Source: Thermoanaerobaculum sp. (GTDB lineage: Bacteria; Acidobacteriota; Thermoanaerobaculia; Multivoradales; UBA5704). Taken from it: a stretch of DNA of 64,000 nt. Where the stretch lies: the NCBI GenBank assembly GCA_021154885.1, contig JAJKHS010000131.1, forward strand, positions 1 through 64,000, in the 5' to 3' direction. The notes beneath the pieces were generated by a model that saw nothing but the letters and a program-made list of their open reading frames with translations, made no database searches and was not told where the DNA came from. Shown piece after piece: positions 1,671 through 54,194 of this stretch (its first letter is position 1; every line of letters begins with the position of its first letter). The position numbers and the translations under genes were made by a program.

Positions 1671-1840
1671 GTCCCCGCTCGGGGGAAAGCCCGTCCCTAC
1701 TGGAGAGAGGACCGTCCCCGCTCGGGAGAAAGCCCATCCCGGTTAGGGAGAGGGCCGTCCCCGCTGGGGAGAAAGCCCATCCCTGCCGGGGAGAGGGCCC
1801 GTCCCTGCTGGGGAGAGGCCCGTCCCTGCTCGGGGCGGCA
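1671..1840. repeat. tandem 21/22-bp repeat with 43-bp higher-order period
   Basis: About eight degenerate units of the form CCGTCCC(C/T)GCT(C)GGGGAGA(A/G)AG run head to tail. Units of 21 and 22 bases alternate, and alternate units resemble each other (CCGTCCCCGCT.. versus CCCATCCC..), so the array is a dimer repeat. No frame in it looks coding. It lies between the Cys-rich gene and the TIR relic. Confidence 0.75.
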
Positions 1841-1972
1841 GGCCGCCCGCGAGCTCGTCGCCCAGGTCCAGCAGGGCTTCACCGGAGAAGCGAGCCGCGA
1901 CCTGCAAGCGGCGCGGGGTCTTTCTGGATTCCTGCTCGACCGAAGAGGAATGAGATCTATAATCCTCCGTGA
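1838..1972 (+). pseudogene. relic of TIR-STAND gene C-terminus
   Basis: This stretch matches the last ~35 codons and the intergenic sequence of the tandem TIR-STAND genes: it translates to AARELVAQVQQGFTGEAS and continues to a decayed version of the GATATAAT junction before the ATG at 1973. Nothing of the upstream 1,150 codons remains. It supplies the promoter of the first intact copy, just as the ends of copies one and two supply the promoters of copies two and three. Confidence 0.75.
1958..1963 (+). promoter_or_regulatory. TATAAT box, predicted leaderless start of TIR-STAND copy 1
   Basis: A perfect TATAAT lies 9 bases before ATG 1973. Transcription would start at or within about three bases of the ATG. 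No Shine-Dalgarno sequence is present (CCTCCGTGA). The -35 is weak (TCGACC at 1936-1941, 16-bp spacing). Confidence 0.55.
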
Positions 1973-4900: not shown

Positions 4901-5635
4901 CGGATCGAGCAGGCCGTGGGGCTCGCGCGCCAGCTCGGCTCCCCGTTCACGCTGGCGTTCGCCTGCGTGATCCACGCGATGCTCGGTTACGCTCTGCGTG
5001 AACCGGAGAGCGTCCGGCGGATGGCCCGGGAGGCGTACGACCTCGCCATGGAGCTGGGCTTCTCCCAACTGGCCTGGGACTCCTCCCTCTTGCTGGCCTG
5101 GTCGGATCTGGTCGCGCCGGTGGGCGGCCGGCCCGCGATCGAGCCGGGCGATTTCGACAGCTTGCAACGGGCCATCGCGCAGAAGGGGGGCGCCATGGTC
5201 TATTTTTTCTGCCTGCATGCGGAGATCCTGATCCTGCAAGGGCGCCCCGGGGACGCCTGGCGAGCCTTGGACGAGGGCCTGCGCCTCGCCCAGGCGCGCG
5301 GAGTGTCGATCTGGCTCGAAGAGCTCTATCGCCTGCAGGGAGAGATCCTGCTGCACGCCCAAGGCCAGGAAGCGCTCGGGGAGAAAGGCGGCCCGGCCGC
5401 AGCCGAGCGGCTGTTCCAGACCGCCCTGGAGCTGGCCCGGCGCCATGATTCCAGGTTTCTGGAGCTGCGTGTCGCCCTGAGCCTGGGGAGACTCTGGCAG
5501 AGCCAGGCCCGGACGCAGGCCGCCCGCGAGCTCGTCGGCTCGTCCCTTCACTGCACCTCAGGGCTCGAGAGCCGTGACCTGCGCGAGGCCCGGGCGTTTC
5601 TGGAGGCCTGCCCGGCCGAGGAGAAGGGGATATAA
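1973..5635 (+). CDS. TIR - degenerate cyclase-like - STAND ATPase - TPR protein, copy 1
   Basis: A 1,220-residue cytosolic signalling protein. A TIR domain covers about residues 12-155 (FISYSQKDEVW; WDDKRI; putative catalytic Glu88 in RGTEVPRLL, as in NADase TIRs). Residues 188-350 resemble a class III nucleotide cyclase domain, but both metal-binding aspartates appear lost (CCELVG and ILGGHRM). A STAND/AAA ATPase follows with Walker A GEAGMGKS (415-422) and Walker B VLLIEDLHWLD (536-546). From about residue 760 to the end it is TPR-like helical repeat. By analogy with TIR-STAND proteins, ligand binding by the repeats may activate ATPase-driven assembly and TIR NAD hydrolysis, for example in phage defence; this is inference. 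A cyclase-linked transcriptional regulator is less likely because there is no DNA-binding domain. It is the first of three head-to-tail copies. Confidence 0.88.
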   Translation: MPPTTGDSPGRPTVFISYSQKDEVWKDRVVSHLKVLEVEGELAVWDDKRIAAGEGWWPEIEGAMNRAAVAVLLISKDFLTSGFIRGTEVPRLLARRQTEGLRVIPVFVHPCAWEAVDWLAALQGRPGKGRTLSEGRKPQIEKHLSALALEIRELLRQLGQRAAGEERGTKSAPVEHSVKPSSHPTSERRQVTVMCCELVGTEGPSGPAQAFDPETLQELMLQLRALAEGVAGRYDGHLGGILGGHRMLIYFGYPQGHEDNAQRAVRAALELAEQVAQRSADSEQGRPVSLALRVGIHTGSAVVAVSPQAQEPMTLGATLDQAVELQSLAAPGQVIVSPATASLIDKSFALAALPAVQAPGRAPLIPHRVLELVDSQEAGAAGLLPLVGRDQELELLLSRWALAREGNGQVILISGEAGMGKSRLVRALRERLEEGSAQWWSCFGSPYTQGSPLQPVVALLRQVFLRREGVPPLDQLAGALGELGLAETVPLFASLLDVPLDERHPAPPLSPERQREKTLEALVALVLETAERQPLVLLIEDLHWLDPTSLDCLDLLIDQMASAPLLLLLTLRLHTLESLWRPRAHLSQITLTSLTGTEAERLIDRVAGAQDLPAEVRRQIVARTDGVPLFLEELTKAVLESHESGERQELPTTLRDSLAARLDRLGTAKEVAQVAAVIGRVFSFELLAAICSFAEAALQQELQRLVQAELVYRKGFGGQARYLFKHALVQDAAYQSLLKRERQQIHRQIAEALAIRFAATAETTPEILAHHYTEAGLTEPAIDCWVRAGALAGRRSASAEAIGHLDRALRLLQSLPAGAERDRRELGIQNFRAAAIITGRGYTDPEVEQTFARAEVLAERLEETEERFWAVLGLHTYHVLFGNLAQALDLAERLLRIAESEGRPALLSIAWLSLGVYHYYQPDYTRALSDLERAYELAPPDDDSYRIRTGADLRMVALAFAAQCFGNLGRLDHALQRIEQAVGLARQLGSPFTLAFACVIHAMLGYALREPESVRRMAREAYDLAMELGFSQLAWDSSLLLAWSDLVAPVGGRPAIEPGDFDSLQRAIAQKGGAMVYFFCLHAEILILQGRPGDAWRALDEGLRLAQARGVSIWLEELYRLQGEILLHAQGQEALGEKGGPAAAERLFQTALELARRHDSRFLELRVALSLGRLWQSQARTQAARELVGSSLHCTSGLESRDLREARAFLEACPAEEKGI

Positions 5636-5636
5636 T
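5631..5636 (+). promoter_or_regulatory. TATAAT box overlapping the upstream stop codon
   Basis: TATAAT contains the TAA stop of copy 1 (5633-5635) and ends 8 bases before the ATG of copy 2. It predicts a leaderless transcript for copy 2. No Shine-Dalgarno is visible and the -35 is poor. Confidence 0.5.
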
Positions 5637-5644
5637 CTTCTTGA

Positions 5645-8600
5645 ATGCCGCAGACAACAGGGGCTTCTCCGGGCCGTCCCACGGTCTTCATCAGCTACAG
5701 CCAGAAGGATGAGGCCTGGAAGGACCGCGTCGTCAGCCATCTGAAAGTCCTGGAGGTCGAGGGCGACCTGGCGGTCTGGGACGACAAGCGGATCGCCGCC
5801 GGGGAGGACTGGCGGCCGGAGATCGAAGGGGCCATGAGCCGCGCGGCGGTGGCCGTGCTGCTGATCTCCACGGACTTCCTCACCTCGGGCTTCATCCGCG
5901 GCACCGAGATCCCGCGGCTGCTCGCACGGCGGCAGACCGAGGGTTTGCGGGTCATCCCCGTGTTCGTGCACCCCTGCGCCTGGGAAGCGGTCGATTGGCT
6001 CGCAGCCCTTCAAGGCCGGCCCGGAAAGGGCCGGGCGCTCTCGGAAGGCCGCAAGCCGCAGATCGAAAAGCACCTCTCCGCCCTGGCGCTGGAGATCCGC
6101 GACCTCCTCCGCCAGGCACCGGTAGCGGGAGAGGACCGTGGAGAGAAAAGCGCCAAGCCATCCGCCGGCCCCCACCCGACCGGCGAGCGCCGGCAGGTGA
6201 CGGTGGTGTGCTGCGAGCTGGTGGGCACGGAAGGTCCCTCCGGTCCGCCGCAGGCGTTCGACCCCGAGGCCCTCCAGGAGCTCATGCTCCAGCTCCGCTC
6301 CCTGGCGGAGGAGGTGGCGAAACGCTACGACGGCCAACTCGGAGGCATCCTGGGCGGCCCTCGGATGCTGATCTATTTCGGCTATCCCCAGATTCATGAG
6401 GACAACGCCGAGCGCGCGGTCCGCGCCGCTCTCGAGCTGGCGGACCAGGTGGCGCAGACGAGCGCCGGCTCCGAGGGGGGGAGGCCGATCCGCCTGGCGC
6501 TGCGGGTCGGCGTCCATACCGGCTCGGCCGTGGTGGCCATCTCGCCGCAGGGCCAGGAGCCGATGACTCTGGGCACGACGCTCGACCTGGCGGTCGAGTT
6601 CCAGTCCCGGGCGGCGCCGGGCCAGGTGATCGTGAGCCCCGCCACCTGTTGCCTGATCGACAAGAGCTTCGCGCTGGAGGCTCTGCCCGCCGTCCAGATG
6701 CCGGGGCTCGGCGCGCCGCTGATTCCCCACCGGGTGGTGGAGCTCATGGAGTCGCCGGAGGACGTCTCCGCGGGCCTCCCGCCCCTGGTAGGGCGCGAGG
6801 GGGAGATGGAGCTGCTGCTGAGCCGCTGGGCTCTGGCCCGCGAGGGGAGCGGCCAGGTGGTCCTGATCAGCGGCGAACCCGGCATGGGCAAGTCGCGCCT
6901 GGTGCAGGCGCTGCGGGAACGCCTGGAGCAGGGCGCGGCGCAGTGGTGGTCCTGCTTCGGCTCTCCCTACACCCAGGGCTCACCGCTCCTGCCGGTCGTC
7001 GAGCTGTTGCGGAGGGTTCTCCTCCGGCGGGAGGGAGCCGCGCCGCTGGACCGGCTCGCCAGCGCGCTGGGGGACCTCGGGCTCGCGGACGCTGTACCAC
7101 TCTTTGCGCCGCTGCTCGACCTGCCGCTCGACGAACGCCACCCCGCGCCTCCCATGACCCCCGAGAGGCAGAGAGAAAAGACGCTGGAGGCGCTGGTGGC
7201 CTGGGTGGCGGGGACGGCGGAGCGGCAGCCGCTCATGCTCCTGATCGAAGACCTGCACTGGCTGGATCCCACGACCCTCGACTGGCTCGACCGCCTGATC
7301 GACGAGATGGCGAGCGCTCCTCTCCTCCTCCTGCTGACCCTGCGCCTCCACACCCTGGAGCTCCCCTGGGGGCCTCGCTCCCACCTCACCCAGCTCACCC
7401 TGACCCCCCTGAACGAGACGGAGTCGGCGACGCTCGTCGATCGGGTGCTGGGCGAGCAGGCCCTGCCGGCGGAGGTCCGGCGGCAGATCGTCGCGCGGAC
7501 GGACGGCGTCCCCCTGTTCCTGGAGGAGCTGACCAAGACCGTCGTGGAATCGCACGACTCCGGCGAGCGGCAGGAGCTGCCGGCGATGCCCACGACGTTG
7601 CGCGATTCGCTGGCGGCGCGGCTCGACCGGTTGGGGACGGCCAGGGAGGTCGCCCAGATCGCGGCCGTGATCGGCCGCAACTTCTCCTTCGAGCTGCTGG
7701 CGGCCGTCTGCGCCCGCGACGAGGCGGCGCTGCAGCAGGAGCTGCGGCGTCTGGAGCAGGCGGAGCTCGTCTATCGCAAGGGTTTCGGCGCCCAGGCGAG
7801 ATACCTGTTCAAGCACGCCCTGGTGCAGGACGCGGCCTACGAGTCGCTGCTCAGGCGCGAGCGGCAGCAGATCCACCGGCGGATCGCCGAGACGCTGGCG
7901 AGCCGTTTCCCCGCGATCGCGGAGACGACGCCCGAGATCCTCGCCCATCACTACACCGAGGCCGGCCTGACCGAGCCGGCCATCGACTTCTGGTTGCGTG
8001 CCGGCGGTCTCGCCAGCCGCCGGTTGGCCAGCCTGGAGGCGATCAGCCATCTGGACCGGGCTCTGCGGCTGCTCCAGAGCCTCCCGGAAAGCCCCGAGCG
8101 CGACCGCCGGGAGCTGAACATCCAGAATCTCCGGGCGCCTGCGATCATCACCGGCCGAGGGTACCTGGATCCGGCGGTCGAGCCGACCTACGCCCGGGCG
8201 GAGGTCCTGGCGGAACGTCTCGCGGCAGCCGAGGAGCGCTTCTGGGCCGTGCTCGGGCTGCACATCTGCCATATCGCAGCCGGCAACCTGGCGCAGGCCC
8301 CGAGCCTCGCCGAGCGCCTGCTGCGGATCGCCGAGGGCGAGCAGCGCCCCGCCCTCCTCTCCATCGCCCGGTTCTCTCTCGGCAACTGCTACATCTACCA
8401 GGGCGACTTCGCTCGCGCCCTCCCCGAGCTGGAGAGCGCCTACGAGCTCGCCCCGCCGGACGATGACTCCTATCGCATCCGCAACGGCGCGGACCTGCGG
8501 GTGTTGTCCCTCTCGTACGCCTCGCTGTGTCTCTGGCACCTGGGCCAGCTCGACCGCGCGCGGCACCGGGCCCAGGCGGCCATGGCTCTCGCCCGCCAGC

Positions 8601-9283
8601 TCGGCTCCCCGTTCACGCTGGCGTTCGCCGGCATCTTCGAGGCGGTGCTCGCTCACCTCCTGGGCGACGCGGAGACCGCCCAGCGGGTCGCCAGGGAGGT
8701 GCAGAGTCTGGCCGTGGAGCTGGGTTTCTCCCAGTGGGCCTGGGAGCCCCCGTTCTTCCTCGCCTGGTCGGAGCTGTACGCGCCGGCAGGGAGCGGCCAG
8801 CCCGGGATCGGGCTGGGCGATTTCGACAGCTCGCAGCGAGTCATCGCGCAGCAGGCGGGGAGCAACATGGCCTACTTTTTCATCCTGCACGCCGAGATCC
8901 TGATCTTGCAGGGGCGCCCTCAGGACGCCTGGCGGGCGTTGGACGAGGGCCTGCGCCTCTCTCAGGCGCGCGGAGTGTTGATCTGGATCGAGGAGATCCA
9001 CCGCCTGCAGGGAGAGCTGCTGCTGCACGACGGCAGCCAACCGGCCGCAGCCGAGCGCCAGCTCCAGACGGCCCTGGAGCTGGCCCGGCGCCATGGCTCC
9101 AGAGCGCTGGAGCTGCGTGCCGCTCTGAGCCTGGGGAGGCTCTGGCAGAGCCAGGGCCGGACGCAGGCCGCCCGCGAGCTCGTGGCCCAGGCCCGGCAGG
9201 GCTTCGACGGAGACGCGAGCCCTGAGCTGCGCGCGGCCCGGGCCTTCCTGGATTCCTGCCCGGCCGGGGAGAAGGGGATATAA
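5645..9283 (+). CDS. TIR - degenerate cyclase-like - STAND ATPase - TPR protein, copy 2
   Basis: A 1,212-residue paralogue with the same domain order: TIR (about 12-155), cyclase-like domain with the metal-site aspartates replaced (CCELVG, ILGGPRM), STAND ATPase with Walker A GEPGMGKS and Walker B LLIEDLHWLD, and a TPR-rich C-terminal third. The TIR half differs from its neighbours at only a few positions, while the C-terminal repeats are clearly more diverged. It begins 9 bases after copy 1 and relies on the TATAAT at the copy 1 stop codon. The proposed role is the same as copy 1, with a different sensed ligand; the ligand is unknown. Confidence 0.88.
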   Translation: MPQTTGASPGRPTVFISYSQKDEAWKDRVVSHLKVLEVEGDLAVWDDKRIAAGEDWRPEIEGAMSRAAVAVLLISTDFLTSGFIRGTEIPRLLARRQTEGLRVIPVFVHPCAWEAVDWLAALQGRPGKGRALSEGRKPQIEKHLSALALEIRDLLRQAPVAGEDRGEKSAKPSAGPHPTGERRQVTVVCCELVGTEGPSGPPQAFDPEALQELMLQLRSLAEEVAKRYDGQLGGILGGPRMLIYFGYPQIHEDNAERAVRAALELADQVAQTSAGSEGGRPIRLALRVGVHTGSAVVAISPQGQEPMTLGTTLDLAVEFQSRAAPGQVIVSPATCCLIDKSFALEALPAVQMPGLGAPLIPHRVVELMESPEDVSAGLPPLVGREGEMELLLSRWALAREGSGQVVLISGEPGMGKSRLVQALRERLEQGAAQWWSCFGSPYTQGSPLLPVVELLRRVLLRREGAAPLDRLASALGDLGLADAVPLFAPLLDLPLDERHPAPPMTPERQREKTLEALVAWVAGTAERQPLMLLIEDLHWLDPTTLDWLDRLIDEMASAPLLLLLTLRLHTLELPWGPRSHLTQLTLTPLNETESATLVDRVLGEQALPAEVRRQIVARTDGVPLFLEELTKTVVESHDSGERQELPAMPTTLRDSLAARLDRLGTAREVAQIAAVIGRNFSFELLAAVCARDEAALQQELRRLEQAELVYRKGFGAQARYLFKHALVQDAAYESLLRRERQQIHRRIAETLASRFPAIAETTPEILAHHYTEAGLTEPAIDFWLRAGGLASRRLASLEAISHLDRALRLLQSLPESPERDRRELNIQNLRAPAIITGRGYLDPAVEPTYARAEVLAERLAAAEERFWAVLGLHICHIAAGNLAQAPSLAERLLRIAEGEQRPALLSIARFSLGNCYIYQGDFARALPELESAYELAPPDDDSYRIRNGADLRVLSLSYASLCLWHLGQLDRARHRAQAAMALARQLGSPFTLAFAGIFEAVLAHLLGDAETAQRVAREVQSLAVELGFSQWAWEPPFFLAWSELYAPAGSGQPGIGLGDFDSSQRVIAQQAGSNMAYFFILHAEILILQGRPQDAWRALDEGLRLSQARGVLIWIEEIHRLQGELLLHDGSQPAAAERQLQTALELARRHGSRALELRAALSLGRLWQSQGRTQAARELVAQARQGFDGDASPELRAARAFLDSCPAGEKGI

Positions 9284-9284
9284 T
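9279..9284 (+). promoter_or_regulatory. TATAAT box overlapping the stop codon of copy 2
   Basis: TATAAT at 9279-9284 includes the TAA stop of copy 2 (9281-9283) and ends 8 bases before ATG 9293. The arrangement is the same as at 5631 and 1958, and no ribosome-binding site is seen. Confidence 0.5.
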
Positions 9285-9292
9285 CTTTTTGA

Positions 9293-12200
9293 ATGCCGCC
9301 GACAACAGGGGACTCTCCGGGCCGCCCGACGGTCTTCATCAGCTACAGCCAGAAGGATGAAGCCTGGAAGGACCGCGTCGTCAGCCATCTGAAAGTCCTG
9401 GAGGTCGAGGGCGAGCTGGCGGTCTGGGACGACAAGCGGATCGGCGCCGGGGAGGACTGGTGGCCGGAGATCGAGGGGGCCATGAACCGCGCGGCGGTGG
9501 CCGTGCTGCTGATCTCCAAGGACTTCCTCACCTCGGGTTTCATCCGCGGCACCGAGGTCCCGCGCCTGCTCGCGCGGCGGCAGACCGAGGGTCTGCGGGT
9601 CATCCCCGTGTTCGTGCACCCCTGCGCCTGGGAAGCGGTCGACTGGCTCGCCGCCCTCCAGGGCCGGCCCGGCAAGGGCCGCACGCTCTCAGAAGGCCGC
9701 AAGCCGCAGATCGAAAAGCACCTCTCCGCCCTGGCGCTGGAGATCCGCGACCTCCTCCGCCAGGCGCCGGCGGTGGGAGAGGACCGCGGCGAGAAAAGCG
9801 TCCAGCCGTCCGCCGGCTCCCATCCGACCGGCGAGCGCCGGCAGGTGACGGTGGTGTGCTGCGAGCTGGTGGGCACGGACGGCCCGTCCGGTCCTGCGCT
9901 GGCGTTCGATCCCGAGTCGCTCCAGGAGCTGATGCTCCAGCTCCGCTCCCTGGCGGAGGGGGTGGCGGGGCGTTACGACGGCCAACTTGGAGGCATCCTG
10001 GGTGGCCCTCGGATGCTGATCTATTTCGGCTACCCCCAGACTCATGAGGACAACGCCGAGCGCGCGGTCCGCGCCGCCCTCGAGCTGGCGGACCAGGTGG
10101 CGCAGACGAGCGCCGGCTCCGAGAGGGGGAGGCCGATCAGCTTGGCGTTGCGGGCCGGCGTTCACACCGGCTCGGCGGTGGTGGCGGTCTCGCCGCAAGG
10201 TCAGGAGCCGATGACCCTGGGCACGACCCTCGACCTGGCGGTCGAGCTCCAGTCCCTGGCGGCGCCGGGCCAGGTGATCGTGAGCCCCGCCACCCGCTCC
10301 CTGGTCGAGAAGAGCTTCGCGCTCGCGGCTCTGCCTCCCGTCCAGGTGCCCGGGAGCACGGCGCCGTCGATCCCCTACCGGGTGCTGGCGCTCCTGGAAT
10401 CGCCGGAGGACAGCTTCGCGGACCTCCCGCCCCTGGTGGGCCGCCAGGGGGAGATGGAGCTGCTGCTGAGCCGCTGGGCTCGGGCCCGGGAGGGGAACGG
10501 CCAGGTCGTCCTCATCAGCGGCGAAGCCGGCATGGGCAAGTCGCGCCTGGTGCTCGGGCTGCGGGAACGCCTGGAGCAGGGCACGGCGCAATGGTGGTCC
10601 TGCTTCGGCTCTCCCTACACCCAGGGCTCACCCCTCCAGCCGGTCGTCGACCTGTTGCGGCAGGTCCTCCTGCGGCGGGAAGGGGCCTCGCCCCTGGACC
10701 AGCTCGCCAGCACGCTGGGGGACCTCGGGCTCGCGGACGCCGTGCCGCTCTTCGCCCCGCTGCTCGACCTGCCGCTCGACGAACGCCACCCCGCCCTTCC
10801 CCTGTCTCCGGAGCGACGGAGGGAGAAGACGCTGGAGGCGCTGGTGACGCTGGTCCTGGAGATGGCGGAGCGGCAGCCCCTGGTCCTGCTGATCGAAGAC
10901 CTGCACTGGCTGGACCCCACCACCCTCGACTGCCTCGGCCACCTGATCGACCAGATGGCGAGCTCGCCTCTCCTCCTCCTCCTGACCCTGCGTCTCCAGA
11001 CCCTGGAGCCCCGGTGGGAGCCTCGCTCCCACCTGACCCAGGTCACCCTGGCGCCGCTGAACGAGACGGAAGCGGCGACGCTCGTCGATCGGGTGCTGGG
11101 CGAGCAGTCCCTGCCGGCGGAGGTGCGGCGGCAGATCGTGGCGCGGACGGACGGCGTCCCCCTGTTCCTGGAGGAGCTGACCAAGACCGTCGTGGAGTCG
11201 CACGAAGCGGGCGAGCGGCAGGAGCTGCCCACGATGCCCACGACGCTGCGCGATTCGCTGGCGGCGCGTCTCGACCGGTTGGGGACGGCCAAGGAGATCG
11301 CCCAGATGGCGGCCGTGATCGGCCGCGTCTTCTCCTTCGAGCTGCTGGCGGCCGTCTGCGCCTGCGACGAGGCGGGGCTGCAGCAGGAGCTGCGGCGTCT
11401 GGTGCAGGCGGAGCTCGTCTATCGCAAGGGTTTCGGCGCCAGGGCGAGATACCTGTTCAAGCACGCCCTGGTCCGGGACGCGGCGTACGAGTCGCTGCTC
11501 AAGCGCGAGCGCCAGCAGATCCACCGGCGGATCGCCGAGACGCTGGCCAGCCGTTTCCCCGAGACCGTGGAGACGACTCCCGAGATCCTCGCCCATCACT
11601 ACACCGAGGCCGGGCTGAACGAGCCGGCCATCGACTTCTGGGTGCGCGCCGGCGGGCTCGCCAGCCGCCGGTCGGCCGGTGCCGAGGCCATCAGCCATCT
11701 GGACCGCGCTCTGCGGCTGCTCCAGAGCCTCCCGGAAAGCCCCGAGCGCGACCGCCGGGAGCTGAGGATTCAGAATTTCCGGGCGCCTGCGATCATCACC
11801 GGCAGAGGGTACCTGGATCCGGAGGTCGAGCAGACCTACGCCCGGGCGGAGGTCCTGGCGGAGCGTCTCGCGGAAGCCGAAGAGCGCTTCTGGGCCGTGC
11901 TTGGATTGCACGTTCATCATGTCGTCTCCGGCAATCTGGTGCAAGCCCTGGACCTCTCCGAGCGCCTCTTGCGGATCGCCGAGAGCGAGCGGCGCCCCTC
12001 CCTCCTCTCCATCGCCTGGCTCTCTTTCGGCATCTACCATTTCTACCAGTGCGACTACGCCCGGGCCGCCTCCGAGCTGGAAAGGGCCTATGAGCTCGCC
12101 CCGCCGGACGACGACTCCCACCGGATCCGCACCGGCGCGGACCAGCGGGTGCTGGCCCTCTCCCACATCTCGCACTGCCTCTTGCACCTGGGCCAGCCCA

Positions 12201-45983: not shown

Positions 45984-47651
45984 ATGACCCGCGCACGCAT
46001 CTGGATCGTCCTCGGGCTGGCGGCGGTGGCCCCCCTCCACCTCACCGCCCAGACCCAGAGGTTCACCGAGCGGCTCACCATCCGCGAGCGGGAGGTTCTC
46101 GTCGACCTGCCGGACTTCCTGCAGAAGAAGTCGCTCAAGCCCGGCGACTTCCAGGTGCTGGTGGACGGCCAGCCGCGCGAGGTCACCCGCGCCGAGCCGA
46201 TGGCCGCGCCGGCGGCGGCCGGCGAGCTGCCATGGACGATCGTCGTCTACGTCGATCGCATCCTCGCGAGCCCGGGGACGGTCTTCTACTCCGGTCTCGC
46301 CCTCTCCCGGCGCACGGCGGAGCTCACCCGCCTGGGCAGCGTCGAAATCGTGGTGGCGGATGCCGATCCCCGGCCGGCGCTCGCTCCCACCCGAGAAGCG
46401 CGGCCCCTGGAGCGGGCGCTCACCGACCTGGCGGCCGCCGCCCGGGTCGAACGGGACCGGGCGGACCGTAGGCCGGCGCCTCCCGGCGGACCGGACGCGC
46501 CCCGGCTCCGGCGCCAGCTCGACAAGCTGCTGGCGTTCCTCACCGCTCACCCGCCCACCGGCCCCCACGCCGTCCTGCTGGTCGCCGACGGCCTCGACCT
46601 GCCGGACCAGCAGATCGCCGACCTCGACCGCGGGGCCGCAGGAGCGCCGCAGACGGCCGCCGCCGCCCTCCAGCGGACGGCCCGCCTGCTCGCCGCCTAC
46701 GGCTGGGTGGCGATCCCCGTCCCCCTGCGCAAGGAGGGGGCGGGCCTCCCGGCCTCCACGCAGAGCGAGATCGAGACCTTCCGGGAGAGCACCGGCGGAT
46801 CGTACTTCGGCTCCCTGCCGCCCATCATCCCCTTCCGCCCGCCCAAGGCCACGTCCCTCGCTTTTTCGGGAGTGATCGATCTCATGATCGCGCCGCGGAC
46901 CGCGGCTCTGCGGGCCCTCGCCCGGGCCACGGCGGGCACCGTGATCGGTTTCGAGGTGCAGCTCGACGAAGCTCTCGGAGCCCTGGCCCGGCGCTGGCGG
47001 CTGTGGCTCGCCGAGCCGGACACGCCCGTGGACGGCCGCCTCCACCCGCTCGCCGTGGGGCTCCCTGGGAAGCGGGAGACGGTGCGGGCACCGCAGTGGC
47101 TCCGCTCCTCGACGCCGGAGGAGATCGCGGAGGTCCGTCTGGAGGACCTCCTGGCGGCCAGGCCCATGGACGGCGGCCTGCTTCTCACCGCCGCCGTGGC
47201 GACCACGACCGCCGGTCCGGAGCTGCGCCTGGAGGTAGGGCCGGTCCAGCTCCCGGAGAGCGCTCCGCCGGGCCCCCTCCGGATCTCCTGGGCCTGGGCC
47301 GGCCCGGACGGCGTCACGGGAATCCACCACGAGACGGTTCCCGGGAGCGTCCCCGCCGGCGATCTGGCGAAGGGCTGGCGGCGCGTCGAGCGGCTGGCGG
47401 TGCCGGCCGAGGCGCGCCGGCTGGCCGTGATCGTCGAGGCCCTGGGACCCGAGAGGTGGGGGAGCGCGGTTCTGACGGTGGACCCCCCGGGTGGACAGCC
47501 GGGGACGGCCGCGGCTCAGCCGACGGCCCGCAGGTCCTCGGCGGTGTCGAGGACGGTGCGCAGGGTCTCGCCCAGTACCTGCGGCGAGAAGGGCTTCTGC
47601 AGGCAGATGGGAGAGTCCGGGCCGCCGTCCGAGAGCTGCTCGTCGTTGTAG
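45984..47651 (+). CDS. secreted VWFA-related-type protein
   Basis: A 555-residue protein with a signal peptide (RARIWIVLGLAAVAPLHLTA, then QTQRF). The next part (VLVDLPDFLQKKSLKPGDFQVLVDGQPREV) is the N-terminal strand seen in acidobacterial VWFA-related proteins. A hydrophobic strand and DxxxS-like segment (WTIVVYVDRILASPGTVFYSG) and HAVLLVADGLDLPD resemble a von Willebrand A-type fold whose MIDAS is not clearly intact. The last ~45 residues lie opposite the 3' end of the kinase gene (136-bp overlap), are of unusual Ser/Arg/Cys-rich composition and may result from loss of an earlier stop. Function unknown. Confidence 0.68.
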   Translation: MTRARIWIVLGLAAVAPLHLTAQTQRFTERLTIREREVLVDLPDFLQKKSLKPGDFQVLVDGQPREVTRAEPMAAPAAAGELPWTIVVYVDRILASPGTVFYSGLALSRRTAELTRLGSVEIVVADADPRPALAPTREARPLERALTDLAAAARVERDRADRRPAPPGGPDAPRLRRQLDKLLAFLTAHPPTGPHAVLLVADGLDLPDQQIADLDRGAAGAPQTAAAALQRTARLLAAYGWVAIPVPLRKEGAGLPASTQSEIETFRESTGGSYFGSLPPIIPFRPPKATSLAFSGVIDLMIAPRTAALRALARATAGTVIGFEVQLDEALGALARRWRLWLAEPDTPVDGRLHPLAVGLPGKRETVRAPQWLRSSTPEEIAEVRLEDLLAARPMDGGLLLTAAVATTTAGPELRLEVGPVQLPESAPPGPLRISWAWAGPDGVTGIHHETVPGSVPAGDLAKGWRRVERLAVPAEARRLAVIVEALGPERWGSAVLTVDPPGGQPGTAAAQPTARRSSAVSRTVRRVSPSTCGEKGFCRQMGESGPPSESCSSL

Positions 47652-50600
47652 CCCGACATGAAGACGATCCGCGTCTGCGGGCGCTCGCCGCGCAGGCGCT
47701 GGGCCAGCTCGGGCCCCTTCATCTCCGGCATGGTGACGTCGGTCAGCAGCAGGTGGACCGCGCCGCGGTGGAGGCGGGAGAGGATGAGCGCCTCCTCGCC
47801 CGAGGACGCCTGGAGCACCCGGTAGCCCTTGCTGACCAGGATCTGGTTGAGCACCGTCCGCACCTCGTCCTCGTCCTCCACCAGCAGGATGGTTTCGGAG
47901 CCCCGGCCCGAGGCGCCGGGCGAGGCCCCGCCGCGCACCACCTCCGCCTCGCGGGTGACGGGCAGGTAGACCGAGAAGCACGCCCCCTCCCCGGGCGCGC
48001 TGTTGACGAAGATGTGGCCGCCGCTCTGCCGCACGATGCCGTAGGCGGTGGAGAGGCCGAGCCCGGTCCCCTCGCCCTTGGTGCTGAAGAACGGCTCGAA
48101 CACCCGGGCCTGGGTCACGGCGTCCATGCCGGTGCCCGTGTCGGTGACCGTCAGCAGGACGTGCGAGCCGGGCGGCACGTTGGCATGGGGCGCCGCGCCG
48201 CCGTCGCGGACGTCGAGGGGGATGGTGCGCAGCGTCAGCCGGCCGCCGGACGGCATGGCGTGGCGGGCGTTGACGGCGAGGTTGACGATGACCTGCTCCA
48301 TCTGCCCGGAATCGATCTTCACCTTGCCCAGCTCGGGGTGAAGCTGCGTGATGAGCTGGATGTCCTCCCCCAGCAGCCGCTGCAGCATCTTCTCGAGGCC
48401 TGAGACCACCGGGTTGAGGCTCATCACCCGGGTCTCCATCGGCTGGCGGCGGGCGAAGGCGAGGAGCTGCTTGGTGAGGGCCGCCGCGCGCTGGCCGGCC
48501 TCCTTGATCCCCGTCAGGTTGCGGCCGAGGAAGGCGTCGTCGCCGTAACGCTCCAGCAGCAGGTCGCTGTAGCCGAAGATAGCCAGCAGGCAGTTGTTGA
48601 AGTCGTGGGCCACGCCCGCCGAGAGGCGGCCGATGGCCTCCATCTTCTGCGAGTGCAGGAGCTGGCGCTGCAACATCTTGTTTTCGGCTTCGTCGTGTTT
48701 GCGCTGGGCGATGTCGCGGATCGCCACCACCGACACCTCCTCGCCCTGGAAGAGGTAGCGCTTGCCCGCGACCTCGATGTCCACCGGGCTGCGGTCGCTC
48801 TTGAAGCCGAGGCTCTCCCGCGGCACCCCCTCGAGGTCCACCTCGCCCGCCACGAGGTCGGCCAGTGGCCGGCCGATGATCTCCTCGGGCCGGCAGCCGA
48901 AGATGGCCAGCAGGGCGCTGTTGACCTCCAGGATGACGCCGTTGCGGACGATGGCGATCCCCTCGAGGGTGGCCTCGAAAAGGGTGCGGAAGCGCTCCTC
49001 GCTGCGCCGGATCTCCTCCTCGGCGGCCTTGCGCTGGGCGATCTCCTGCTGCGCCTTCTCGTACAGGCGGACGTTCTCCGCCATGGGGGCGATCTGGTTG
49101 GCCACGGTCGACAGGAGGTGGACGTCGCTCGCCGGAAAGTAGTCGTCCGGATCGCGCCGGCCGATGAGCCAGGCGCCGATGGGCTGGGCCTGGACCACCA
49201 GGGGGATGACCAGGCGCACCCAGGCGCGCGGCGAACGGTCTCCGTCCTGCGGCCGCAGGTAGCGCCCGCTCGTCGCCAGCAGGTCCCGCAGCTCCTGCAC
49301 CGTGGGCTCCGGCGCCCCAGCGGGGACCGCCTGCTCGTAGAGAGTCTCCTTGCGCCCCTCCTCGAAGAGATAGAGGGCCGACTGCCGGATGAGCAGGGTG
49401 GGCAGGATCTCGTTGGCGATCACCCGCGCCAGCACCTCACGGTCGAAGGCCGTGGGAATGCGCTCGGAGACGAGGCCGATCACCTCCTCCGCCGTGTGCT
49501 TGATGCCGAAGACGCGGCGGTCCACCAGCGCCTGGAAGCGATCCCGCAGCAACGGCGCCAAGGCCACGAAGAGCAGGGAGACGAAGAGGACGGTGGCCAT
49601 GAAGCCACCGGGGATGGTCTCCCACCGGCGACTGAGGAGAAAGAAGATCATCGTGTAGGAGGCCAGCAGCAGCACCGAGAAGGTGTAGATGCCGAGCAGC
49701 CGGTTGGCGCGGAACTCCAGGGCCCCCAGATTGTGCTTGTAGATGGCGTAGATGTAGCCCATCGGCAGGATCGGCATGGAGAGGATCGACAGGCCGAGGA
49801 TGTAGTCGTACGCCCAGCGCAGGCTCTGCCCCTCCCGGATCGTCGCGTCGAGCAGCCGCGGCAGCACCCCCTGAAACAGCAGCAACGGCACCAGGCCCAG
49901 GGTGATGCCGAAGAGCATGATACGCACCGCAACCCTGGCGGCGGCGCTCACCGGCCAGACCAGGCGTCCCACCAGCAGCAGGATGGAGAGGCCGGTGCCC
50001 ACCAGCATGTACTTGAGGTAGGAGATCCCGGCCCGCGGCAGCGCGAAGTCCGCCATCGCCAGGGCCAGCGACAGCGTATAGAGACCGCCCAGAGACGCCA
50101 GGCGCGCGCGCGGGCCCAGGAGAGGATTGGGCAGGATCAGGTGCAGGTGCAGGCACAGCGGCGCGAAAAACCAGATCACGGCATGGAACAGGAACCACGA
50201 CCCGGAAACCCGCGCTCCAATCCCGGTGGCGATCCACAGGGCGGTGTCGTAGCTGAACAGCACCAGCACCAGCCAGCGCTCGTCGCGCGGCCGCAGGAAA
50301 ATGACCACCACCGTGCCCATCAGCCAGAACACCAGCGGCGCCACCATGTCGAAGACGAGCTGCGGCAGGTCGATCCGTGGCTTGAGGATTCCAACCGTGA
50401 GAGTCAAGGGCCTGCCCTGGCGGATCAGGTCGAAGCGGGCGGCTCCCCTCGAGCCGAAGATCCCCTGGAGCGAAAGCCAGCGATTGCGGTTGAACTGCTG
50501 GAAGTCCACGCCCTCGACCCGGAGCACCTCGTCACCCACTTTCAGACAGGGAGCCTCGGGAGCGCACGGGTAGGCGGAGATCACCTTCCAGTTGGCGGAG

Positions 50601-50731
50601 CTGAGGGTAAAGCCAAGGTCGGGGGAGGAGAAGGCATAGGGGTAGTACAGGCAGGGGACGAGGATCACGAGACAGGCGAGGATCAGGAAGAAATCCAACG
50701 CCTTCCACGAAGCGGGATGCCGGGTGTCCAT
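47516..50731 (-). CDS. ComP-like hybrid sensor histidine kinase (PDZ - multi-TM - GAF - PAS - HisKA - HATPase - REC)
   Basis: A 1,071-residue inner-membrane sensor. TM1 (about 12-32) is followed by an extracytoplasmic PDZ-like loop (34-118, CLKVGDEVLRVEGVDF), then about eight helices (125-395), a GAF-like domain (430-560), PAS (580-680), H-box GVAHDFNN (His709), N-box NLAVNARHAM, G-boxes DTGTGM and GTGLGLS, and a receiver (945-1065, Asp998 in LLLTDVTMPEM). PDZ between TM1 and TM2 plus a TM bundle is also the topology of Bacillus ComP. The gene has no Shine-Dalgarno but a TGGACT-N17-TATAAC promoter about 20 bases upstream. It lies directly downstream of the peptide/prenyl-synthase genes, so a pheromone receptor role is inferred. 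Its 3' end overlaps the convergent gene. Confidence 0.85.
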   Translation of the reverse strand: MDTRHPASWKALDFFLILACLVILVPCLYYPYAFSSPDLGFTLSSANWKVISAYPCAPEAPCLKVGDEVLRVEGVDFQQFNRNRWLSLQGIFGSRGAARFDLIRQGRPLTLTVGILKPRIDLPQLVFDMVAPLVFWLMGTVVVIFLRPRDERWLVLVLFSYDTALWIATGIGARVSGSWFLFHAVIWFFAPLCLHLHLILPNPLLGPRARLASLGGLYTLSLALAMADFALPRAGISYLKYMLVGTGLSILLLVGRLVWPVSAAARVAVRIMLFGITLGLVPLLLFQGVLPRLLDATIREGQSLRWAYDYILGLSILSMPILPMGYIYAIYKHNLGALEFRANRLLGIYTFSVLLLASYTMIFFLLSRRWETIPGGFMATVLFVSLLFVALAPLLRDRFQALVDRRVFGIKHTAEEVIGLVSERIPTAFDREVLARVIANEILPTLLIRQSALYLFEEGRKETLYEQAVPAGAPEPTVQELRDLLATSGRYLRPQDGDRSPRAWVRLVIPLVVQAQPIGAWLIGRRDPDDYFPASDVHLLSTVANQIAPMAENVRLYEKAQQEIAQRKAAEEEIRRSEERFRTLFEATLEGIAIVRNGVILEVNSALLAIFGCRPEEIIGRPLADLVAGEVDLEGVPRESLGFKSDRSPVDIEVAGKRYLFQGEEVSVVAIRDIAQRKHDEAENKMLQRQLLHSQKMEAIGRLSAGVAHDFNNCLLAIFGYSDLLLERYGDDAFLGRNLTGIKEAGQRAAALTKQLLAFARRQPMETRVMSLNPVVSGLEKMLQRLLGEDIQLITQLHPELGKVKIDSGQMEQVIVNLAVNARHAMPSGGRLTLRTIPLDVRDGGAAPHANVPPGSHVLLTVTDTGTGMDAVTQARVFEPFFSTKGEGTGLGLSTAYGIVRQSGGHIFVNSAPGEGACFSVYLPVTREAEVVRGGASPGASGRGSETILLVEDEDEVRTVLNQILVSKGYRVLQASSGEEALILSRLHRGAVHLLLTDVTMPEMKGPELAQRLRGERPQTRIVFMSGYNDEQLSDGGPDSPICLQKPFSPQVLGETLRTVLDTAEDLRAVG

Positions 50732-50748
50732 GGGTCAGTCCGGACATA

Positions 50749-50777
50749 GTTATAGCAGGCCCGCCGTCGCCAGTCCA
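50749..50777 (-). promoter_or_regulatory. sigma70-type promoter of the hybrid kinase gene
   Basis: On the minus strand TGGACT (50772-50777), 17-bp spacer, TATAAC (50749-50754), ending 17 bases before the kinase ATG. The predicted leader is about 10 bases. Confidence 0.55.
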
Positions 50778-50891
50778 TCCCGGCTGCGCAGACGGATGCG
50801 CCCGCGAGACCCAGGAGAGCGAGGGCCGCGCGGGCGCGTTGCAGCAGGACCGGAATCTTCGCTTGCCGGGTGTGCCGGGGGCCGGGGATTT

Positions 50892-51080
50892 TCAAGCCCT
50901 CCCGCCCCAGGCGCACCCTCCCCCCACCGGCCCGCCGTCGCTGGGCCACTCCCCCCACGCCGGCGCATCCCCGGCCAGAGCCTTCAGATCGTTCATCCGG
51001 CTCAGGCGGCGCAGCGCATCGAACAGCACGCTTTTTTCATTTCGGGAAATGAACAGGGACCGGAATTCCTGAATGTTCAT
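50892..51080 (-). CDS. ComX-like peptide precursor 1
   Basis: A 62-residue peptide. I choose the ATG at 51080 (MNIQEF), because GGAGG lies 8 bases before it; the ATG 15 bases upstream has no such site. It is a paralogue of the peptide at 52458: about 19 of the first 35 residues are identical (M.IQEF...FIS..E...LF.ALR..S...D.KAL), and both carry a WG(E/Q)WP core (Trp42 and Trp45 here). The C-terminal tail is Gly/Pro-rich with a further CAWGG (Trp58). There is no signal peptide, as in ComX. In Bacillus ComX a Trp near the C-terminus is prenylated by ComQ. The prenyl-synthase-like gene lies upstream and the ComP-like kinase 160 bases downstream. It could instead be a RiPP precursor. Confidence 0.7.
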   Translation of the reverse strand: MNIQEFRSLFISRNEKSVLFDALRRLSRMNDLKALAGDAPAWGEWPSDGGPVGGGCAWGGRA

Positions 51081-51277
51081 GGTCTTTTCCTCCATCGGAA
51101 AGGCAATGTCCTTTGATAAGGTCGAAGCTCGATCAGCGGCGATTCCTGAAGGGGCGCCGGGGGGCTGCGCGCGGCCGGGCGGAGCTTTCGATAGGAGATT
51201 GCGGAGACCGCAGGAGGATTCTCGACCGGCTTACACCGGGAGACTTCAATTTGAATGCTCAACCTTGCATTGAGCAT
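51077..51277 (-). CDS. possible small ORF coupled to peptide 1
   Basis: A 66-codon frame beginning MLNARLSIQIEV. GAGGGAG lies 7 bases before its ATG, and its TGA overlaps the ATG of peptide 1 (ATGA), a typical translational-coupling arrangement. The protein is rich in Pro, Arg and Ser, without a recognised domain or signal. Its start codon sits in an inverted repeat (51255-51277). It may be a leader ORF that controls peptide 1, or a chance frame. Confidence 0.35.
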   Translation of the reverse strand: MLNARLSIQIEVSRCKPVENPPAVSAISYRKLRPAARSPPAPLQESPLIELRPYQRTLPFRWRKRP

Positions 51278-51348
51278 GTTACGACTCCCTCTTGCAGCAG
51301 CCTGCCGTTGGCGTGGAGGGCGAAAATCAGTGTAACACTAAATTACAC
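51199..51348 (-). promoter_or_regulatory. cluster of inverted repeats between the prenyl synthase and peptide 1 genes
   Basis: Three perfect inverted repeats: GTGTAA-N7-TTACAC (51330-51348), ATGCTCAA-N7-TTGAGCAT (51255-51277) and TTGCGG-N3-CCGCA (51199-51212). The last resembles the two halves of the Bacillus ComA site (TTGCGG-N4-CCGCAA), but the spacer is one base shorter and the last base is missing. GTGTAAT also occurs upstream of peptide 2 (complement at 52727-52733). A shared regulator is possible but unproven. Confidence 0.4.
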
Positions 51349-51386
51349 CTCAATGATTCCTGGGGGCCAATAGAACGTCTCCTCCG

Positions 51387-52334
51387 TCAGGGAAGCGTCA
51401 GCGTCGCGGGATCCTCCACGCCTGCGATCTCGAGCAGCCGGTGAAGCGGCTTGATGTGCAGCTCGACCAGCTTCACCACCGGCTGGGGATCGGTCAGGGA
51501 TACGTCGGCGAGCAGCTCCCGGAGCTGCCGCGAAAGCTCGACCAGCTTCAGGGCGCAGTAGCTCACCGCGCCGCTACGGAAGAGGATCTTTTGCGCGGCG
51601 GCCAGAGCCTCCGGCTCGTCGACGCGCGTCGAAAGCTGCGCGAACTCGCCGCGACCGGCATGGTCCGCGGTCAGGGCATAGAGGATCGGCAGATTGTTGT
51701 GCCGGCGCTTCCAGTCCGCGCAGGCCGGCGATTCCAGGGCGTCTGCCAGATCGTCGTTGACCTGGATGTAGCGGCCGAGCAGGCGCCCCAGGTGGGCCAG
51801 CCGCTCCGCCGTGGCGGCGTCGGCACGGCCCAGGAGCGCGCCCATGCGCAGCGCCTCGCCGAAGAGCGGCGGGGACTTGGCCTCCACCACCCGCCAATAG
51901 TCCGCCTCGGTCTCGAGCTCCAATGAGTCGAGGCTCTGGCCGTAGCACGTGGCGAGGGACATGGTGGCGAAACTCTTCTGGAGCGCCGCCCGCACCGGCG
52001 CGCTCCCCTTGTCGAGAAGGAGCTGCCCCGCCGCTTGGAACGCCAGGGCCACGTTCGCCACCGGCCCGGGGCCAAGGCGGTGGAAGTCGCCGCGCGGATC
52101 GTCGTCCAGCATGTCGTCCACGAGGTGAATGCTGATCACCGAGCAGAAGACGGCGGCCGCCGCGGGCATGGCGTCCTCCTCGGAGCCCCCCACCGCCTTG
52201 CAGGCCGCCACCGGATACTCCCAGACGGAGGTCAATTCCCGATGGATCGGCCGCTCGATCAACTCGAGCATCAAAGGCCAGGAGGAGACCTCCGGAATCC
52301 TGCGGACTCTATTTCTCAGGTCCTCGAAGTCCAT
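51387..52334 (-). CDS. ComQ-like isoprenyl diphosphate synthase/peptide prenyltransferase
   Basis: A 315-residue protein of the polyprenyl-synthase fold. First Asp-rich motif HLVDDMLDDD, second motif VNDDLADA, and long Ala/Leu helices between them. I use the ATG at 52334 (MDFEDLRNRV); AAGGAGG lies 10 bases before it, and an in-frame GTG at 52340 is 4 bases from the same site. It could be an ordinary geranyl/farnesyl diphosphate synthase. However, it stands between two paralogous Trp-containing peptide genes and upstream of a PDZ-TM kinase, with no quinone, terpene or dxs gene nearby, so a ComQ-like role (prenylating the Trp of the peptides) is inferred. Confidence 0.75.
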   Translation of the reverse strand: MDFEDLRNRVRRIPEVSSWPLMLELIERPIHRELTSVWEYPVAACKAVGGSEEDAMPAAAAVFCSVISIHLVDDMLDDDPRGDFHRLGPGPVANVALAFQAAGQLLLDKGSAPVRAALQKSFATMSLATCYGQSLDSLELETEADYWRVVEAKSPPLFGEALRMGALLGRADAATAERLAHLGRLLGRYIQVNDDLADALESPACADWKRRHNNLPILYALTADHAGRGEFAQLSTRVDEPEALAAAQKILFRSGAVSYCALKLVELSRQLRELLADVSLTDPQPVVKLVELHIKPLHRLLEIAGVEDPATLTLP

Positions 52335-52457
52335 TCCCACATGCCCTCCTTGAAGGCCGTCGAGACCAAGCCCGGGGGGCCGGCCCCCCGGACCCGTGAC
52401 ACACTCACCAACGGCACGCAACCATCAAGCGAGTTTCGTGCCGGTCACTCCGCCGCT

Positions 52458-52628
52458 CTACTGCGCGGCCATTACAGGCCACTGCCCCCAATCGGTAAGG
52501 GCGCTTTCTGCATGGCCGTTGAGCAGGGCTTTGGCGTCCTCGATCTGGCTGACCTTGCGGAGCGCCGCGAAAAGATTGCCCTGCTCGCCAACGGAAATAA
52601 ACTTCCGGTAAAACTCTTGAATATGCAT
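52458..52628 (-). CDS. ComX-like peptide precursor 2
   Basis: A 56-residue peptide, the size of Bacillus ComX. It begins MHIQEFYRKFISVGEQ and ends near DWGQWPVMAAQ, with Trp47 and Trp50. The leader part is 54% identical (19 of 35 positions) to peptide 1, while the tails outside WG(E/Q)WP differ, as expected of a conserved recognition leader and a variable product. GGGGAG lies 10 bases before the ATG and can be masked by an upstream hairpin arm. There is no signal peptide. The gap to the prenyl-synthase gene is 123 bases. The alternative is a Nif11-like RiPP leader, which has similar length and helical leader. Confidence 0.7.
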   Translation of the reverse strand: MHIQEFYRKFISVGEQGNLFAALRKVSQIEDAKALLNGHAESALTDWGQWPVMAAQ

Positions 52629-52638
52629 CGGCGTAGCT

Positions 52639-52670
52639 CTCCCCTAGTAGGGGGAGCCGAAAGGCTCCCC
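52639..52670 (-). promoter_or_regulatory. mutually exclusive hairpins covering the peptide 2 ribosome-binding site
   Basis: On the minus strand, arm A GGGGAGCC (52663-52670), loop TTTC, arm B GGCTCCCC (52651-52658), spacer CTACTA, arm C GGGGAG (52639-52644), which is the Shine-Dalgarno of peptide 2. Arm B can pair with A (8 bp) or with C (6 bp). Pairing with C would hide the ribosome-binding site. On the plus strand the same A-B hairpin has a GAAA loop and is followed by ACGGTTTTTGTTTT, so it would act as an intrinsic terminator for antisense transcription. Confidence 0.5.
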
Positions 52671-52840
52671 ACGGTTTTTGTTTTAACCCGTACAAACCTA
52701 CAAACGATTTTAGAAACTACAGTGGTATTACACTCGGCAGGTGGTGGCCACGAGTCGCATTCCCCCCAATAGAAAAGTAGCAAAGTACGGCAACGGACTT
52801 CAGAGCACGCGCGTGTCCGTACCCTAAGGTGCGGCGAGCC

Positions 52841-52898
52841 CTGTCAGACCGTGACAGTGACACGAAGCTGACTTGGCGATGACACGGCAGATGACACG
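52841..52898. repeat. TGACACG direct repeats with a CTGTCA/TGACAG palindrome
   Basis: TGACACG occurs at 52858, 52880 and 52892. CTGTCA-GACCG-TGACAG covers 52841-52857. The cluster lies in the 340-base gap between the REC-EAL gene and peptide 2, where a promoter for the peptide operon would be expected. No protein is known to me to bind this motif. Confidence 0.4.
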
Positions 52899-52967
52899 AA
52901 AACCCGAAGCCAGATGGCGAAACTAAATAGATCTATTTGTGAATACTATTGATGAGCCGTGCCGCGC

Positions 52968-54194
52968 TCACGGCGGAGACGACGGCACGGCGCCGAGCGG
53001 CTCGAGGACACCGGAGTGATCCTGGCGGGCGGCGTCCGCCTGGAGCAACTGCGCCAGCTCGAGGCCGGGGAGCGGCTTGAGGAAGAAATAGCCCTGCGCG
53101 TAATCGATGCCGAGCAGGCGGAGCACCTCCGCATCCTCGGCCGTCTCGACCGCCTCCATCACCGTCGCCGTGCCGGCGCGCGCCGCCATCTCGGCCGTGC
53201 TCTGGACGATGATCTGTTTGAACGGATCGTGGGCCAGGCCGCGGCAGAAGGTGCCCGAAATCTTCAGGAAGTCCGGATGCAGATCTTGGAATAGGTTTAG
53301 ATTCGAAGAGCCCTCGCCAAAGTCGTCGAGCGCGATCCGGAATCCCCTTTCGCGCAGCCGTTGCAGCGTCGCGGCAAAGGCGCGGGGATTGACGATCGTC
53401 TGCTGCTCGGTGAGCTCCAGGACGATGCTCTTCTCTTCCATGCCGGCGCCGCGGACCGCGGTGCACAGCTTGTCGGCGAACTCCGGGTTGGTCAGCGAGC
53501 GCGGCTGCACGTTGAGGAAGGTGACCACCGTGTTGCCGAGGTGGATCACCTCGGCCAGGGCGGCGCGGATGCAGATCATGTCCGCCTCGAACAGCAGCTC
53601 CTTCTGGGCGGCGTAGGCGAGGAAGACCGCCGGGCTGCCCAGCACCGAGTGGGCGGGGCCGCGGGCCAGGCTCTCGACGCCGAAGACCTCGAAGCGCGGC
53701 GCGCCGTCGCGCAGCTTGACCACCGGCTGCAGCACGGCGCGGATGGGGTTGGCGGCCATGAAGTCCTCGAGCAGCTCCACCTGCTGCACCTCGCCGTCGC
53801 CCTCCAGAGGGGCACCGGGAACGAGCTGGGCGTCCCGCCGGTCCAGCAGATAGCTGCGCAGGCGCGACAGTCCCTCGGACTTCTCGAGCACGGCGGTCAC
53901 GCCGAGGACGGAGCACAGGTCGCGCACCGCCTGATCGACGTAGCCGGAGAGGACGTAGACCGCGGTGTCGGGGAAGTTGGCGGTCACGAAGCGGACCAGG
54001 CGCATGCCGTCCAGGCCACCGAGCTGGGAGACGGAGAGGTCGGTGATGACGACGTCGAAGCGAAAACAGCGCAGCAACGCCTCGGCCGCCTCGATCTCCA
54101 TGCAGGTGGTCAAGTCGAGACCCGGCAGCCGCAGACAGGCCGCCAGGGTGTCGACCACGATCGACTCGTCGTCGAGGATCAGTACGCGAAGCAC
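52968..54194 (-). CDS. REC-EAL domain response regulator (c-di-GMP phosphodiesterase type)
   Basis: A 408-residue protein from the GTG at 54194 (VLRVLILDDESIV), where a receiver domain begins. The frame is open further upstream, but that part is Arg/Pro-rich without family resemblance. The receiver has the acidic pair and the phospho-Asp in FDVVITDLS. The EAL domain shows FGVESLARG, LNVQPRSL, LELTEQQ, LDDFGEGSSNLNLF, and VMEAVETAEDAEVLRLLGIDYAQGYFFLKPLP. The usual KID is KIS here, so activity needs care. It would degrade c-di-GMP in response to phosphorylation. It is the first gene of the minus-strand group with the peptides, prenyl synthase and kinase. The start codon has no evident Shine-Dalgarno. 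Confidence 0.78.
   Translation of the reverse strand: MLRVLILDDESIVVDTLAACLRLPGLDLTTCMEIEAAEALLRCFRFDVVITDLSVSQLGGLDGMRLVRFVTANFPDTAVYVLSGYVDQAVRDLCSVLGVTAVLEKSEGLSRLRSYLLDRRDAQLVPGAPLEGDGEVQQVELLEDFMAANPIRAVLQPVVKLRDGAPRFEVFGVESLARGPAHSVLGSPAVFLAYAAQKELLFEADMICIRAALAEVIHLGNTVVTFLNVQPRSLTNPEFADKLCTAVRGAGMEEKSIVLELTEQQTIVNPRAFAATLQRLRERGFRIALDDFGEGSSNLNLFQDLHPDFLKISGTFCRGLAHDPFKQIIVQSTAEMAARAGTATVMEAVETAEDAEVLRLLGIDYAQGYFFLKPLPGLELAQLLQADAARQDHSGVLEPLGAVPSSPP

Follow-up and report, generated by a model that had tools for sequence, protein, structure and literature searches.

In comQXPA (ComQ-ComX-ComP-ComA) systems, the genes for a prenyltransferase, a Trp-containing peptide and a multi-TM receptor kinase lie side by side. 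ComQ must have Asn or Gly as the first residue of its SARM, and changing Asn to Asp sharply cuts its activity (PMC5331326). In published models of ComP, TM1 and TM2 flank a PDZ domain (PMC9620489). Among the components, ComX is the most variable and ComA the least, with a variable N-terminal domain in ComP (PMC4008528, Dogsa et al.). The nearest characterised analogue besides ComX is PalX-PalQ-PalP of Paenibacillus alvei, where a Trp peptide and a trans-IDS-like Trp prenyltransferase occur with an adjoining histidine kinase; the SARM Asp residues are present in PalQ, which works without needing them (PMC10853753). ChrPC likewise has a trans-IDS-like enzyme, its P domain, that acts on an internal peptide Trp. 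To our knowledge, no peptide pheromone has been described for Acidobacteriota or Chloroflexota. A census of 2014 found comQXPA-like loci in Firmicutes alone and in no other phylum (PMC4008528). Our literature search returned no later paper on comQXPA-like systems in Acidobacteriota or Chloroflexota, and in PMC8895600 only a ComP-ComA pair is assigned to Chloroflexi.

The locus and its genes

We analysed a stretch of 64,000 nucleotides from Thermoanaerobaculum sp. (the window), in which an earlier note had placed a ComQ-ComX-ComP-like locus of five minus-strand genes; the positions of all five coincide with the open reading frame calls. They encode a REC-EAL response regulator (52,968 to 54,194, with a GTG start; Pfam Response_reg 5.9e-12, EAL 6e-47), the 56-residue peptide A (52,458 to 52,628; MHIQEFYRKF...ALTDWGQWPVMAAQ; AGGGGAG ribosome-binding site upstream), a 315-residue trans-IDS-like enzyme (51,387 to 52,334; Pfam polyprenyl_synt PF00348, E 1.4e-13, a weak match of 51 bits), the paralogous 62-residue peptide B (50,892 to 51,080; MNIQEFRSLF...APAWGEWPSDGG...; GGAGG ribosome-binding site upstream), which adjoins the receptor gene, and a 1071-residue hybrid kinase, the putative receptor (47,516 to 50,731). 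Both peptides are predicted precursors of prenyl-Trp pheromones, and the enzyme is a predicted Trp prenyltransferase. The domain order of the kinase is PDZ (residues ~36-114), TM bundle (~122-407), GAF, PAS, HisKA, HATPase_c and REC; Pfam recognises the GAF, PAS, HisKA, HATPase_c and Response_reg domains, the last being the fused receiver that had been proposed. The Pfam search gave no match for kinase residues 1-430 or for either peptide, and the NCBIfam search gave no equivalog for any protein of the locus.

The gap between peptide A and the enzyme holds a GC-rich hairpin (52,340 to 52,400, minus strand; fold z-score -2.56 for 52,330 to 52,470). It might conceivably be an attenuator or processing element, and as such could boost expression of the peptide relative to the enzyme. 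Rfam found no known RNA element in the module.

Enzyme, peptides and receptor compared with known systems

The AF2 model of the enzyme (pLDDT 87, pTM 0.88) has the trans-IDS fold and matches many solved synthases with a TM-score of ~0.7-0.8, in agreement with the earlier description of the protein as polyprenyl-synthase-like. The FARM (D73, D74, D77) and the SARM (Q191, D194, D195, D198) are kept in the window enzyme, and the FARM and a QxxDDxxD SARM are kept in 41/41 related enzymes from Acidobacteriota and Chloroflexota, one of which has Gly at alignment position 74. Canonical polyprenyl diphosphate synthases (PF00348) share the fold and both motifs, but their IPP-binding motifs GKRxRP and RRGxxT (9/9 and 7/9) occur in 0/41 of the related enzymes. 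Thus, the features of a trans-IDS-like Trp prenyltransferase (the fold, the FARM, a SARM-proximal Gln and the loss of the IPP motifs) are all found in the window enzyme, the Gln not being diagnostic since canonical synthases have it too. In two trees, with 22 sampled members of the new clade, the new enzymes formed a clade of their own (100/99), ComQ another (100/99), and the canonical synthases a third (100/97) that includes the three encoded elsewhere in the same genome. The enzyme therefore does not group with the housekeeping FPP/GGPP synthases, as the earlier note had allowed that it might, and we rejected a housekeeping synthase on the separate clade, the lost motifs and the three canonical enzymes. 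The best NCBIfam match, a Family-2 encapsulin cargo transferase, was also rejected (65 bits, cut-off 450).

ComQ resembles the new enzymes in having neither GKRxRP nor RRGxxT. In contrast, judged from database records of ComQ, the first SARM residue is Asp (DDxxD) in 41/41 of the new enzymes and Asn or Gly in 5/5 ComQ proteins, whose NDxxx/GDxxx pseudo-SARM the window enzyme does not show. This motif is the chief argument against simply counting the enzyme as a ComQ. W19, W147 and W208 are invariant in the new clade and missing from ComQ. Given its separate clade and intact SARM, we predict that the enzyme works like ComQ rather than being ComQ. With a root among the canonical synthases, a single loss of the IPP site could be common to ComQ and the new clade, a reading that the long branches make uncertain. 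By their published descriptions, PalQ resembles the window enzyme in its SARM Asp residues, and ChrPC is a P-C fusion as opposed to the single 315-residue domain of the window.

The earlier note had described ComX-type peptides with a shared leader and a Trp-bearing core. The paralogous leaders and the Trp residues are there, but homology to ComX was ruled out: the peptides have no Pfam match (PF05952), and HHalign gave 0.1%. The PF05952 search of the genome itself was silent, as was its control. What the peptides share with ComX is a length of 50-65 residues and a Trp in the C-terminal region. Unlike PalX, they have neither an NHLP leader (no NHLP or Nif11 Pfam match) nor a strictly C-terminal Trp.

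At the first related loci (L001-L005), the enzyme gene has immediately upstream of it an ORF of 48-61 residues that bears a Trp close to its end. A profile built from eight such peptides retrieved the peptides of genomes in the same genus and family as the window, and the enlarged profile matched upstream of the enzyme at 19/19 new Chloroflexota loci outside its training set (E 0.11 at worst). WVGWR, WMGWGY and WSVWG are examples of their tails; the tail at L113 is odd and longer. Homologues of peptide A lie 5' of the enzyme in G001, G002, G003, G008 and at ~30 Chloroflexota loci, and homologues of peptide B occupy the same place as in the window in G001 (L088) and G002 (L027). W-x-x-W, which ComX does not carry, is present in 36/45 peptides versus 6% of background ORFs (40-80 residues), and its second Trp is nearly invariant. 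In six of the nine peptides that deviate from W-x-x-W (G109, G147, L109, L115, L117 and L124), the one remaining Trp is the C-terminal residue or its neighbour, a position that suggests the second Trp of the W-x-x-W pair as the modified site. A few W-x-x-W tails lie 17-25 residues from the C-terminus, beyond the positions tested in ComX. Close peptide pairs have a dN/dS of ~0.1-0.2, indicating purifying selection. The peptide genes are more than chance ORFs.

The sensor of the window kinase matches those of Chloroflexota kinases with E values of 1e-20 to 1e-58. Aligned by HHalign with four ComP proteins, it gave a probability of 98.6% (P 5e-16) over 500 collinear columns, while reversed ComP gave 0.5% and six unrelated membrane proteins gave at most 0.6%; the PDZ part by itself reached only 57%. 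This profile alignment supports the PDZ loop and the TM bundle, and with them the ComP topology that had been suggested. On this basis, the whole sensor of the receptor is homologous to ComP. The AF2 model of the sensor (pLDDT 61) is too weak to rely on, the GAF domain excepted.

The transmitter differs from that of ComP. Instead of HisKA_3 with a NarL/LuxR-type regulator, the window has a HisKA-REC hybrid with HDFNN at the phosphoacceptor (H709) and the receiver motif DVTMP at 998, and its neighbour is a REC-EAL protein. Such hybrids occur in Acidobacteriota and some Chloroflexota, and several Chloroflexota relatives have a HisKA_3-type (ComP-type) kinase with a NarL/LuxR-type (ComA-type) regulator.

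Distribution of the module and divergence of its parts

A first scan with the window enzyme returned six Chloroflexota loci (41-48% identity). Whole-genome searches found the enzyme within the window's own genus and family, in one further family of its order and in a distant family of the phylum. It had matches in 9/400 Chloroflexota genomes (E < 1e-30), three of the nine being remoter enzymes, and in 25/396 genomes (~6%) of one Chloroflexota class. The single-sequence search left a wide gap between matches of the clade (E < 1e-60) and other polyprenyl synthases (E > 1e-8). Many of the relatives are metagenome-assembled genomes.

A peptide of the same family adjoins the enzyme at 38/41 loci. 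The exceptions are G135, truncated at a contig end, G023, where a search near the enzyme found no peptide, and G029. A receptor homologue adjoins the enzyme at 16/17 untruncated new Chloroflexota loci and at nearly all others. Among 99 relatives, the sensor is present in 8/8 genomes with the enzyme and 1/91 without it (Fisher p 5e-11, ignoring phylogeny). Thus, most of the 41 loci, like the window, show the adjoining prenyltransferase-like enzyme, Trp peptide and multi-TM receptor kinase of comQXPA, and the set of peptide, enzyme and receptor is a real, dedicated and conserved module outside Firmicutes. This bears on two points of the earlier note: the peptides, whose conservation beside the enzyme it had left in doubt, are kept there in two phyla, and the locus does lie outside Firmicutes but extends beyond the acidobacterial lineage to Chloroflexota. 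The Bacillus order comQ-comX-comP that it had noted holds in the window, although in relatives the usual order is peptide-enzyme-kinase (X-Q-P).

The sole enzyme of G029 has no such neighbours; far from it, three W-x-x-W peptides adjoin two receptors (L084 and L085, each receptor with one or two peptides), as pairs served in trans. The peptide here follows the receptor, as is expected of a ligand and its receptor.

Other arrangements were also seen. One locus (L029 in G003) has two tandem copies of enzyme and peptide with a single receptor. ComP-like receptors at L087 (G026, 5470-8706, minus strand) and L086 (G016, 5120-7972, minus strand) have no enzyme nearby, and no peptide was found near either sensor; in G026, the enzyme is absent from the whole genome. 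These may be eavesdropping receptors. At L078 (G695, 1804-2892, plus strand), a remoter enzyme without the IPP motifs falls close to the new clade; neither a peptide nor a receptor was seen next to it.

Comparison of the window with G001 showed that the sensor and the peptides are the fastest-diverging parts. Identity is 54% for PDZ and 58% for the TM region, versus 72% for GAF, 85% for the histidine kinase and 81% for REC; it is 63% for the enzyme, ~90% for EAL, and 44% for the leader and 26% for the rest of peptide A. The variability ranking known from comQXPA (ComX, ComQ, ComP, ComA) is the same in the window family.

Predicted signalling, its alternatives and the possible c-di-GMP output

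The separate clade, the conserved peptides and the ComP-homologous sensor support the reading as ComQ-ComX-ComP-like signalling, and we consider it probable that the locus encodes a peptide-pheromone system working in this way, with prenylation and pheromone sensing strongly predicted from sequence. The enzyme would bind an allylic diphosphate (GPP, FPP or GGPP supplied by the housekeeping synthases) at the first Asp motif and move the prenyl group onto a Trp in peptides A and B, the second of the W-x-x-W pair being the most likely acceptor. Other proteins would trim and export the peptides, and the lipopeptide would be bound by the PDZ-TM sensor and thereby control the hybrid kinase. Phosphate would then pass to the neighbouring REC-EAL protein, directly or via an Hpt protein, and the REC-EAL protein would alter c-di-GMP. 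We infer the prenylation, its position and length, the export, the self-sensing and the EAL output.

The enzyme and peptide may cooperate in a chemistry other than single Trp prenylation (double prenylation, prenylation with W-x-x-W cyclisation, or another acceptor), which would be a variant of the pheromone chemistry and so overlaps with that explanation. The Trp pair three residues apart in most peptides, compared with one Trp in ComX, fits this idea, as do the SARM, intact unlike that of ComQ, and the three invariant Trp residues that ComQ does not have; but the peptides with a single terminal Trp indicate that one can suffice, and we regard such chemistry as unlikely. It is distinctly improbable that the locus is instead a prenylated RiPP locus, whose peptides would serve as lipidated antimicrobials or surfactants and whose kinase would regulate their production or sense envelope stress. 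PalX/PalQ/PalP is annotated as a RiPP cluster that includes a histidine kinase and has no known role (PMC10853753), and prenylated Trp peptides are membrane-active (PMC13290415). Against this, the loci are minimal, comprising peptide, enzyme and receptor, and a conserved gene for a transporter, a peptidase, immunity or further modification was not seen at the related loci; the peptides remain by the receptors where the enzyme lies elsewhere (G029); and the sensor, homologous to a known pheromone receptor, is the part that diverges fastest. An ordinary or specialised polyprenyl diphosphate or terpene enzyme beside unrelated or regulatory small ORFs would account for the trans-IDS fold and the intact FARM and SARM, but hardly for the loss of the IPP motifs in every relative, the separate clade in a genome with its own canonical synthases, or adjacent peptides under purifying selection, and we hold it to be very unlikely.

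For a pheromone system, the REC-EAL protein, of the c-di-GMP phosphodiesterase type, is the likely output. Its catalytic residues E177, N231, E263, D293/D294, K314 and E350 (numbered from 54,203) are present. In each of the four genomes of the window's family, the protein adjoins the module (78-90% identical), the helicase neighbour of the window being absent at G003; within this family, REC-EAL is thus part of the conserved gene set. The step from the hybrid kinase to REC-EAL is drawn from this adjacency within one family. No standalone Hpt gene adjoins the kinase, and five Hpt domains are encoded elsewhere in the genome.

A Chloroflexota locus (L082 in G724, 7266-10,751, plus strand) represents a second type of system and combines a 71-residue peptide whose leader looks NHLP-like (no Pfam match) and which ends in LDWWWS, a ComQ-like enzyme that groups with ComQ (100/96), and a fused PDZ-TM-GAF-HD-GYP sensor that matches ComP (97.8%). 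Together, the adjacency of REC-EAL and this HD-GYP fusion suggest c-di-GMP as the target. It is a tentative possibility, somewhat short of even, that PDZ-TM ComP-type sensors for prenyl-Trp peptides are an old family found in at least three phyla, with peptides and enzymes that evolved apart from ComX and ComQ and with outputs through a ComP-type kinase and LuxR-type regulator, a hybrid kinase and REC-EAL, or an HD-GYP fusion.

Under that broader reading, a lipidated peptide pheromone would control c-di-GMP in the window genome, possibly through two distinct pheromones sensed by one receptor. The same logic in Acidobacteriota and Chloroflexota, with a homologous receptor, a non-homologous peptide and a separate enzyme clade, would mean that prenyl-Trp signalling is an old language, widespread among two large groups with few cultured members. 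The loci offer dozens of Trp prenyltransferase candidates, each with its matched substrate, allow a test of how the acceptor is set by the SARM residues, and would link a lipopeptide signal to c-di-GMP.

Our searches also recovered two plasmids labelled Stenotrophomonas rhizophila (CP065518.1 and CP031730.1; L036 and L081) that carry a Lysinibacillus-like comQXPA; these labels are probably wrong.
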